Below the pieces are notes generated by a model. It worked only from the letters and a program-made list of their open reading frames with translations. It had not been told where the DNA came from and did no database searches. A program made the position numbers and the translations under genes. This document shows, piece after piece, positions 24,956 to 35,065 of a stretch of 64,000 nt of DNA. The stretch's first letter is position 1; each line of letters begins with the position of its first letter. The DNA is from Salinibacter grassmerensis (GTDB taxonomy: Bacteria; Bacteroidota; Rhodothermia; Rhodothermales; Salinibacteraceae): positions 124,001 to 188,000 of the forward strand of contig NZ_CAMTTF010000001.1 in assembly GCF_947077765.1 (NCBI RefSeq), written 5' to 3'.

Positions 24956-25895
24956 GGGAGGAGGAGGGGTTGGACGTAGATCGTGCTATGCTGGCGGCCG
25001 GAAAGGATGCTTCGAGCCGCCGGTCGGCGCTGGTGAAAGCGCTTCGATGTACAAATGAGATTATCTGATACGGGGGTTTGTAATCAGCTTCTTCTAGGGC
25101 CTTTGGTACAAGAATGTTCAGTTGCGCCCCTGGGGGCGGGTTGGGGGCCTGGGCGTTACCGACCGGTGGGCCGCAGAGTGAAGACTGGGGGCAGCCATCG
25201 CGACCGAACGCAGCGTGGTCTGCGATCTTGGGTGCGGAGACGGACGCATTCTGGTCACGCCCCCTGCCGGACAGGGAGGCCCGTGGTAGAATTTCTACAG
25301 CACGTCCCCCTAACCTCCTCGCAGGGTTAAAGGGCGTATGGGAGGCGTCCTCCAATCTCTACTGAGAAGCGGGCAAGACCTGCCTCGTCCAAAAGGTCTT
25401 CGGCCGTTCGGGCCAGTCGGCGACGATGAGGTACACCCATACCGTAAACGAAAAGCCGGGCGTCACGATGAGGAGATTGTAACCTTTCGTTGACGCCTTA
25501 CGCTCAGACACCGCATTTGGGGGGCGCACCATGCACTTTTCACCTGCAATCCAGTGTTTTAAAATGCTCAGACATCTGACCTCACCTTTTACGCCCGAAA
25601 GCAAGACCGCTCCAAAGACGAAAACGTCTAGCGCAGCGCATCCGACTAGGGTTCACCGACCTGTCGGAAGTGCACCAGGTGCCATAGTTATCAGTATCCC
25701 ATTCGGGGTTTCAGCGCTGGAAGGGAGTAGAGAAGGAAGCCGGCACACCCACCCCGCCGGCGGGGCACGACGGCCTTAGACGGGGGATGGCTTGTTGGGG
25801 CGCCCAGAACCGACAGGGGGAGTGCGGCGACGATATTCCGGAGTCCGTGTTCGACAAATTGCGCCGGGCAACGCCAAAACTGACAGAACAGACCG
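24956..25895. other. Intergenic region, 940 bp
   Basis: No gene is supported. An 81-codon minus-strand frame at 25359-25604 contains a hydrophobic stretch but has neither a known family nor convincing codon use. Promoters for the flanking divergent genes should lie at the two ends. Confidence 0.4.
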
Positions 25896-26552
25896 ATGAC
25901 AAAGCGGGAAGTCGACATTGAGCTGGCCGACATGGCCAATCAGCTCGGCGTCACCCTCCGTCGGCTAATGGTGGGACTCCAAACGGGCCGGTTCTCCGAG
26001 TACGTCACCGAGGACGATCTCGTGTACAGCGACAAGGGGGACCCTCTTTTCTTCCGTGTTGAGCGATCCCGTGGATATGCAATCTGCGGACAGGATCTGC
26101 CCGACGTGGAGAAAGACATGAGCACGGTGGAGAGGATGAGCACCTCCAGGGAGGCGAAGGAGGGCACGAAGGCGGGACGCGGCGCGTCCGTAGAGCAGAG
26201 CGGATGGCCCGTGGACTTCGGGAAGGTCGCAGGGGCGGTCGCGCTCATCAAGACCGCCTTCTTCGGTGGGGTTGACCTGCTTCGCCGGCTCCTTGGTGGC
26301 CTCGAGAGGCTCTTCGAGGGCCGGCCGCCCAGTGAGCAGCAGTCCAGACGTGAACTTCCGGGCCGGCGGTTGGACGCGATCTACCAGGAGGGCTGGAACG
26401 CCCGGTTGGAGGGAAACCGGTCCAATCCGTACCTCGACGATCTGCAAGCGAGCAACGCTTACCGTCAGGGATGGTGGGACGCGGACGAGGAAATGAAGCG
26501 CCTGCTGGTGTCTCACTTCGAAGTGGAGTGCCAGACGTCCGCTCGCGGGTAA
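25896..26552 (+). CDS. Hypothetical protein with C-terminal Rmf-like domain
   Basis: 218 aa. The N-terminal 65 residues (LADMANQLGVTLRRLMVGLQ) look like a small helical, HTH-like or dimerisation domain, followed by a charged linker. At about 113-145 there is an amphipathic or membrane-associating helix pair (VAGAVALIKTAFFGGVDLLRRLLGGLERLF). The last 50 residues, with AIYQEGWNARLEGNRSNPY and AYRQGWWDADEEM, match the pattern of ribosome modulation factor and related Rmf/CrpP-fold proteins (GxxAxxxGxxxNPY...R.GWxDA). Rmf dimerises ribosomes in stationary phase. A fusion of this kind is not one I recognise, so ribosome binding is only a suggestion. Confidence 0.75.
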   Translation: MTKREVDIELADMANQLGVTLRRLMVGLQTGRFSEYVTEDDLVYSDKGDPLFFRVERSRGYAICGQDLPDVEKDMSTVERMSTSREAKEGTKAGRGASVEQSGWPVDFGKVAGAVALIKTAFFGGVDLLRRLLGGLERLFEGRPPSEQQSRRELPGRRLDAIYQEGWNARLEGNRSNPYLDDLQASNAYRQGWWDADEEMKRLLVSHFEVECQTSARG

Positions 26553-27310
26553 GAGAGGGGCTATTGATCGCCCGGACTCCCAGCGCATGGTATCTGAACC
26601 CTGAGAGGCGGCAGTTTCACTCAAGGGATGAGTGTGCCGATCGAACCGGCCTGCCGCGGCAGAAAAGAGCCCACGACCCAGACCTTGGGGCCTGGATGAC
26701 GAGGAGTGCCCTCACTTTTCGATGCCTTCCTTCCCTGCGCGATGGCAAACGCCGAGATGTCCCGGAGAAACCAACGGTTCAATCACTCATCGTCTCTCTT
26801 TCCACCTGTCCTCACAGATTTCATTCTCCCTTTGTTGATACCCTGGGGGGCTGTTTTGTTATACTGGGAGTAGACACATATAGGAAAATTTGAGAGGTCG
26901 CTGAATAGCCTAGTCAGCTCAAGCTTCTTCTTTACGCTCTAACGAGTTTTGGCCCGTCTCGGAGTTTCCTCCCCCGCCCACACTCCGAGCCGGGCCATTT
27001 CTACGTCTAGGGCTCACGTCGAGTCGAAAATCCCCCGCCATCGCCCCCCGCTTGGGCCGACGAGTCCGTTGTGATCGAATCTATGCCCCACGGCACAGGC
27101 GGTAGGGCGTGCGAGCCACACTGCGCAGGCCATACCGGCCGGTCCCTCGCTTCAGGCCAGCCCCTTTTCGGCCAAGAGATGCCAGCCGGGCGCAAGTGCA
27201 CACCACCCGGAAGCCGCCTGGGCGACGTGGAGAACGGAGCTGTACGTCCCTAGCTGCGCCCCAACCAGTGTAGAGCCGTCCCTACTCCTGGCGGCCTTTG
27301 GCGTGACTCC
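26553..27310. other. Intergenic region, about 760 bp
   Basis: No gene is supported. The stretch at about 26810-26945 is relatively AT-rich. Nothing else recognisable was found. Confidence 0.45.
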
Positions 27311-34225: not shown

Positions 34226-35065
34226 GCGACGCGCATCGCGAAACCTGCTTTCAACGATCCCGCCGTCAAGGGCCCTGCGAAAGCCGAGAAACAAGCTCTT
34301 GAAGTTGAACGGTCGCGGGCGGCCTTCGGGGCTGGGCGGGCGTCCTCGCTCTGCCAACTGGCCGGATACGTCTCGGCGGCAAGAAGAACGACCAAGCCTC
34401 CACAAGGGGATCAGGCGCCGGACGTGTTGAGGGCCGAGGGATCGTTTCCCAAAGATTGGTCAGATACAACGCCTTCCTGAAGGGGCCCTTCGGAGAGCGG
34501 GATCGCCTGCGTTCAGGTCCGCTGCGCCGATCAGTCTGGTCCTGGTTGGCGCTACCTCCCCTCATGGTCCTCTGCCGTCAGGTATCCTTCGAGCCAGGCT
34601 TCAATCTCCTCCGGGCCGTCGAATTGGTGCTTGTCCGGTGGCGGCTTTTCTTCCTGGAACGCGCACCACCCGTTGTTGAAGGCCTCGCGTAGGCTCGGTC
34701 TGTCGTACGGGTTCAGCTCTTCGTGGAGGTTTGGCTTTTCGATGCTACTGCCTGTGGGCTTGGCGCAGAACGGGGCTAAAAGCGGTCCTCACTAGGCAAT
34801 GGGGCAACCGGAGAGCAGAGTGGACCGGAAGGCCGCACCGCCGATCCTTCCGCGCGGCCTTACTGGCCGGCAGATCCGCCGAACGGTTCTGCTAGCTTAG
34901 GAAGCCCCAACTCAAGAGGCCATCGCATAGACGCATGCGAGCCAGTAGTCTAACGTCCTTCGAATCTCTTTTCGGGCTCCTCCACGGAGTCTTCACTAAT
35001 GAGGCCCCGTCCCTCGAAATGGTGCTGCCCAATCCCCACGCCTCGCGCAACCGGTCCGGCGTGCC
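34209..35065. other. Gene-poor interval with one remnant
   Basis: Contains only the start-less Rmf-like frame at 34552-34788 (minus). The remainder shows nothing recognisable. Confidence 0.4.
34552..34788 (-). pseudogene. Small Rmf-like protein without a start codon
   Basis: The minus strand is open for 78 codons up to TAG at 34552. It reads EKPNLHEELNPYDRPSLREA, then FNNGWCAFQEEKPPPDK and EEIEAWLEGYLTAEDHEGR. The pattern R-EAF-x2-GW...A-W-x2-GY is that of small Rmf/CrpP-fold proteins, distantly like the C-terminus of the protein at 25896. No ATG, GTG or TTG exists in the open part; an ATC triplet (34741-34743, reverse) stands where a Met would be expected, just before EKPNLH. It is therefore either a gene killed by a start-codon mutation or one using a rare start. 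Confidence 0.5.

Follow-up and report, generated by a model that had tools for sequence, protein, structure and literature searches.

Published accounts present ribosome modulation factor (RMF) as a free 55-residue protein that occurs mainly in gammaproteobacteria (PMC8778775; PMC8126665). In the mutational account given in PMC8126665, the E. coli RMF alanine mutants G16A, C29A, W40A and W44A did not bind, while R3A, K5A, R11A, G23A, P30A, G43A and R45A bound and dimerised poorly or not at all; according to the Discussion of that report the binding of R3A, K5A and R11A was weak, and R45 is presented as the residue contacting the anti-Shine-Dalgarno sequence. Two further systems provide precedents: HibA, a larger protein that carries a hibernation domain, as outlined in PMC13324472, and YqjD, which tethers stationary-phase ribosomes to the membrane, as summarized in PMC8778775. 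In the literature that we searched we found no description of a fusion involving an Rmf-type hairpin, which does not prove that none exists, and none joining ribosome modulation factor with CrpP or with Salinibacter.

Here we analysed a window of 64,000 nucleotides of the Salinibacter grassmerensis genome (contig NZ_CAMTTF010000001.1, positions 124,001 to 188,000), which contains a gene for a protein with an Rmf-like C-terminal part. Like RMF (PF04957), this part has a two-helix hairpin, the pattern G..A...G...[NC]PY...GW..A and a basic arm before the first helix. Unlike RMF, the protein has 218 residues instead of about 55, in a single frame selected at both ends; it scores under the family cut-off, the residues corresponding to C29 and R45 are replaced, the loop is two residues shorter in the register used, and the second helix is predicted to be longer. 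Because the score lies below the PF04957 cut-off and residues needed by RMF are lost, the C-terminal part is a domain of the Rmf/CrpP fold and not an RMF orthologue.

The remaining described families resemble the window protein in parts. With CrpP and CrpP-related proteins (NF041856, NF041886, NF033696) it shares the Rmf/CrpP pattern with an NPY loop. CrpP-type proteins are small, and models of this type match some free-standing relatives in the order, whereas the window domain gave no match to them at E ≤5; unlike for CrpP, no mobile-element family was recognized among the nine scanned neighbours of the gene, five of which matched nothing. The same hairpin is present in phage Rmf-like proteins (NF041887; phrog_26995 and phrog_10492). 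In the 178-position profile of phrog_26995 it lies at positions 103-154 (E 0.036 with the domain alone and 0.41 with the whole protein), so a longer phage protein with an Rmf-like hairpin may already exist; unlike these phage families, the window protein showed no similarity to them in its N-terminal half, and its scores are weak. HibA, as far as PMC13324472 describes it, differs in its ribosome-binding domain, and the window protein has no HPF or CBS match. The comparison with YqjD, ElaB and YgaM holds only if the window helix anchors ribosomes to the membrane; in the account of PMC8778775 their membrane helix is C-terminal, so that the order of parts differs, and the window protein has no clear transmembrane helix.

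Results

Reading frame, selection and neighbourhood

The gene occupies positions 25896-26552 of the window on the plus strand and is an open reading frame of 218 codons starting with ATG, with no in-frame ATG, GTG or TTG between this codon and the preceding stop. Of 12 further genomes examined in the genus, two (G003 and G010) contain orthologues with the same layout and 80% identity, and the gene was present in three of 41 genomes searched, the window's own counted. Differences between the window genome and G003 were distributed 28/26/68 over the three codon positions (chi-square p = 1e-6), and dN/dS for the 218-residue protein in this comparison was 0.16 overall, with values of 0.11 for residues 1-75, 0.34 for residues 76-155 and 0.04 for residues 156-205. 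Purifying selection was strongest in the hairpin, clear in residues 1-75 and weaker in the stretch between. Together, the regional dN/dS values and the codon-position pattern indicate that both ends are constrained in one frame, with a looser middle; the hairpin and the N-terminal half belong to one continuous conserved reading frame. The initial annotation had reported a 218-residue protein with an Rmf-like pattern, and the frame proved real, with its ATG start, and conserved in two other species. The pattern is present as well; its placement in the last 50 residues was slightly inexact, since the domain spans about residues 157-201 and is followed by 17 residues.

An antisense reading frame at 25965-26624 was discarded as a gene since the distribution of differences over codon positions agrees with the plus frame, and most of the gene in G010 is not covered by any minus frame of at least 120 codons. 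Chance alone would give 0.5 promoter-like and 2.5 terminator-like sites; one of each was found, at 25537-25565 on the plus strand and on the minus strand, respectively, and the locus had no Rfam match. In the three genomes an acyl-CoA dehydrogenase gene (92% DNA identity) lies upstream and an uncharacterised gene downstream, and the gap between the dehydrogenase gene and the conserved block, about 0.8 kb in the window, widens to 1.6 kb for G010 and 4 kb for G003. In another genome, G006, the downstream gene (65% identity) is found in another setting, without the fusion gene alongside. A Pfam scan of nine neighbouring proteins left five without any family.

Searches for relatives of the full protein pointed to a narrow distribution. 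Peptide patterns retrieved 146 and 45 stretches from the genome collection, none of which passed tblastn, and 77 stretches from viral contigs, of which none passed either; no relative was confirmed in plasmids, and two weak matches (E 3) were both records of one Caulobacter phage. The genome scans do not cover everything: they rest on short peptides, may have excluded near-genome records and did not return the two orthologues. A full-alignment search of the phylum gave matches in six of 247 genomes at E ≤0.05, namely the three orthologues and the weak L035, L036 and L037; L035 was judged by eye to be an unrelated, reductase-like frame. The profile search for the same fusion that had been suggested as a check recovered it in three species of the genus, the other three matches among the 247 genomes of the phylum being weak.

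The C-terminal hairpin

The motif EGWNARLEGNRSNPY...GWWDADEE corresponds to residues 165-199 and lies in a helical hairpin of the Rmf/CrpP fold at residues 157-201 (26364-26498, plus strand), a region identified by profiles, by its structural model and by the low dN/dS of residues 156-205. The Pfam RMF model PF04957 aligned over nearly its whole length to residues 157-198 with 9.8 bits (E 1.1), below its curated cut-off of 27.9 bits; it matched only one of the three orthologues and gave no match to the domain cut out alone. Used as a genome probe, the same model gave matches in 56 of 60 genomes at E ≤10, only two of them above the cut-off, and the window's own domain was absent among the matches listed. 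Fifteen of 30 probe loci were inspected and eight kept as plausible motif-bearing small proteins, which with one further row made up a profile of nine free-standing relatives from which the fused proteins were excluded. This profile gave the window protein 22.7 bits, against 10.5 bits for the best of 20,000 shuffled versions of it. All nine rows had first been found through the RMF model and picked by eye, which favours the motif, and for this reason the comparison of the profile without fused members with the window protein and its shuffles is the decisive one. It places the proposed resemblance of the C-terminal part to Rmf above chance: the hairpin is homologous to the Rmf-like proteins that occur free-standing in this order. 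In agreement with this, a profile-profile comparison of residues 161-200 reached a probability of 91% (E 1e-6), and a PDB search with a profile of fused and free-standing members retrieved RMF chains (E 6e-4, 0.0088 and 0.011).

In the first set of seven members (A2; two fused and five free-standing), five matched Pfam RMF (best 6.6e-7) and four each matched the NCBIfam families CrpP_rel_fam (best 1.6e-9) and the broad Rmf_CrpP_fam; matches to NF041856, NF041886 and NF041887 numbered four, four and three of the seven, respectively, and the window domain matched none of these three models at E ≤5. Eleven aligned members have invariant G, A, P and G, with E, N and Y nearly so, and thus show the helix, NPY loop and helix with fixed G, A, P and G that define the broad Rmf/CrpP group. 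The only NCBIfam match of the whole protein, of residues 67-117 to class D beta-lactamase (E 0.04; 13.1 bits for a cut-off of 525), was taken as chance.

Modelling of the C-terminal 65 residues with 11 aligned sequences gave a pLDDT of 89.5 and helices at residues 156-172 and 183-217 (positions 3-19 and 30-64 of the model). The two best Foldseek matches in the PDB were RMF structures, 2jrm (Vibrio parahaemolyticus RMF; probability 0.94) and the RMF chain of the E. coli hibernating ribosome 9iot (0.85), with weak E values of 0.68 and 1.7, and RMF entries were the only members of the fold encountered in this search; the structural comparison with Rmf that had been called for thus turned out in favour of the resemblance. 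VIA-align gave Z scores of 6.6 and 6.8 to the RMF entries, while no unrelated chain exceeded 4.9; as Z below 8, or below about 13 for helical folds, may reflect a common arrangement only, the fold match supports the sequence evidence and is not proof alone. A viral structure library contained no match at E ≤0.001 (best 0.069). Its first 13 rows were proteins of 48 to 119 residues, one of them annotated as ribosome modulation factor, and lower rows included proteins of 152 and 261 residues; since these longer viral proteins match the modelled fold, a hairpin placed inside a longer protein is perhaps not unique to the genus.

Residues important in RMF

In the register of the profile alignments to RMF, five of the 11 mutagenised residues are kept, namely G16 (G166), G23 (G173), P30 (P178), G43 (G192) and W44 (W193). 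W40 is replaced by Tyr189, C29 by Asn177 and R45 by Trp194, and the positions aligned with R3, K5 and R11 have no basic residue in the window protein. Directly N-terminal of the hairpin there is an RR....RR arm, SRRELPGRRL (residues 150-159; 26343-26372, plus strand), which is identical in the three species, has a net charge of +3 and includes an in-frame TTG at codon 159. The residues retained are mostly those that shape the hairpin, and the one that reaches the anti-Shine-Dalgarno sequence is gone. This pattern, as read from the alignment, supports a shared fold and possibly binding, and speaks against a plain RMF function.

The N-terminal half and the connecting region

The full-length model, for which only three sequences were available, had a mean pLDDT of 42, with residues 1-155 below 50, and at this low confidence it shows a helix at residues 3-30 and one long helix at residues 111-137. 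The N-terminal region (residues 1-75; 25896-26120, plus strand) combines the dN/dS of 0.11 mentioned above with the absence of any convincing relative outside the three species: for residues 1-80, Pfam, the PDB and the 114 genomes searched in the order yielded none besides the orthologues, and the N-terminal half as a whole had no Pfam match. One PDB match at E 1.5 was taken as chance; a search of the order gave matches in nine of the 114 genomes at E ≤0.1, of which the six non-orthologues were judged on inspection to be chance or antisense frames. Residues 6-31 had a weak PHROG match (E 0.071) to an uncharacterised family of 57 positions. The spacing of LGV...GRF recalls a helix-turn-helix, which we do not claim since no library search supported it.

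Residues 76-110 (26121-26225, plus strand) form a variable linker, with alignment gaps and low pLDDT, within the stretch under weaker selection (residues 76-155). A possible amphipathic helix follows at residues 111-137 (26226-26306, plus strand), as suggested by the low-confidence helix, its hydrophobic moment and its hydropathy. The moment of residues 105-145, a stretch picked after the fact, was 0.67, a value reached by nine of 1000 shuffles of the stretch and, unremarkably, by 87 of 1000 shuffles of the whole protein; for the stretch in one orthologue the moment was 0.66 (seven of 1000 and 112 of 1000, respectively). Hydropathy over the best 19 residues reached 1.68 in the window protein and 1.58 in each of the two orthologues, values that are borderline for a transmembrane helix. 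Judged by these sequence properties, the putative amphipathic helix might possibly contact a membrane surface or a partner. The N-terminal helical domain of the initial annotation is therefore backed by the helix at residues 3-30 with weak support, given the pLDDT below 50 over residues 1-155, and its amphipathic helix pair is reduced to one long, weakly supported helix, not a pair.

Hibernation context and other Rmf-like reading frames

The window genome has one HPF-domain gene, a 106-residue open reading frame (short HPF), and no long-HPF C-terminal domain (PF16321), which was detected in eight of 14 control genomes. E. coli, which uses RMF, likewise has a short HPF without a long HPF. An Rmf-type partner would therefore fit this genome as far as co-occurrence goes, and two weaker Rmf-like candidates elsewhere in it, each picked up by a different one of the two profiles, might fill the RMF role instead of the fusion. 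One of them lies at 34552-34743 on the minus strand (domain at 34567-34704; E 0.0076), about 8 kb from the fusion gene. It is found at the same place in G003 and G010 and is divergent (dN/dS 0.30 against G003). Neither in the window genome nor in G003 does an in-frame ATG, GTG or TTG precede the domain; conservation starts near an in-frame ATC present in all three genomes, which implies either a non-standard start or a decayed gene. The other (L085, G000:C10:80930-81082; E 0.0019) encodes about 60 residues from an ATG, and two further species of the genus carry closely related frames (L084 in G009 and L080 in G008).

In the order, 15 of 114 genomes had an Rmf-like match at E ≤0.01: ten of these had supplied profile rows, the match in G010 is near-identical to a row, those in G008 and G016 are new, and those in G012 and G059 appear to be chance frames or broken ones. 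A wider draw from the phylum, with up to 15 candidates per genome scored, gave matches at E ≤0.001 in at least six of 395 genomes, all six in the order. In contrast to RMF, eight of the nine free-standing relatives are net negative in charge. A tblastn search of phages with one free-standing relative found no match at E ≤0.1.

It is worth recording that one genus carries several distinct free-standing Rmf-like types (L008 and L051 in G007, L048 in G009, L007 in G004 and L049 in G005), all five of them net negative, whereas E. coli RMF is basic. Besides their main HPF match, G009, G004 and G005, and more weakly G007, showed another, weaker one in open frames of 200-372 codons.

Discussion

We tentatively read the 218-residue protein, with a confidence that falls somewhat short of even, as a genus-restricted fusion: its putative ribosome-binding end, a hairpin of the Rmf/CrpP fold, is connected by a probable amphipathic helix and a variable linker to an N-terminal region peculiar to this protein. 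That the hairpin binds the ribosome is putative, though it can reasonably be inferred. The hairpin, aided by the arginine-rich arm, would bind the platform of the 30S subunit in the manner of RMF, close to the 16S rRNA 3' end, probably at times of slowing growth and alongside the short HPF of the genome. Where or when this happens would be set by the front half and the amphipathic helix, which might hold the bound ribosome at a membrane or at a partner, or mask the hairpin until a signal arrives. With neither the anti-Shine-Dalgarno arginine nor the conserved cysteine present, the protein would more likely bind without dimerising as RMF does than form true 100S particles.

A more specific version of this proposal is a hibernation factor with built-in control, in which a hairpin joined to a private sensor or anchor would make silencing depend on place or signal, rather than on the expression and turnover of a free RMF, in a lineage with short and without long HPF; we consider this rather unlikely. 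The hibernation reading is weakened by the loss of residues that serve binding or dimerisation in the account of PMC8126665, and also by the spread of the fold over phage proteins and families of the CrpP type, in which this analysis met no ribosome function.

These same observations bear on the main rival explanation, that the hairpin is used off the ribosome, with another RNA, DNA or a protein as partner, as may be the case for many phage and CrpP-like members of the fold; we take this to be a serious possibility while remaining doubtful of it. The matches of A2 members to CrpP_rel_fam and Rmf_CrpP_fam (four of seven in each case), the uncharacterised viral proteins with the same fold and the loss of RMF-specific contact residues all agree with such a use; however, both the core of the hairpin and the basic arm have been kept, the PDB search met the fold only as RMF entries, and the nine scanned neighbours, five without a Pfam family, suggest no other partner.

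A ribosome tether, in which the amphipathic helix would sit on the membrane and the hairpin would hold idle ribosomes, as in YqjD though built from unrelated parts, seems improbable to us: the hydrophobic moment of 0.66-0.67 is kept despite sequence drift and YqjD itself is a precedent (PMC8778775, in its summary of that protein), yet the hydropathy peak of 1.58-1.68 is borderline for a transmembrane helix, the moment is ordinary when judged against whole-protein shuffles (87 and 112 of 1000) and the helix is predicted at low confidence. We give very little credence to the idea that the long protein is a precursor of a free Rmf-like peptide of about 60 residues, produced by cleavage or by initiation at the internal TTG of codon 159. 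This TTG (26370-26372) stands just before the first hairpin helix in all three genomes and the linker is variable; nevertheless, purifying selection clearly acts on the first 75 codons (dN/dS 0.11), no Shine-Dalgarno-like sequence was seen by eye before the TTG, and its conservation weighs little because two of the three genomes carry nearly identical copies.

The fusion with a putative ribosome-binding end has an unfamiliar front half; hibernation domains within larger proteins have been described, as in the HibA account of PMC13324472. The conserved Rmf-fold fusion, together with the free Rmf-like proteins of the order and the short HPF, would allow the Rmf/CrpP fold to be tested as a general 30S-binding module, and the fusion itself would offer a direct test of whether an attached domain can tether or gate ribosome hibernation. 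It would furthermore help to place those phage and CrpP-like members of the fold that lack an assigned function.
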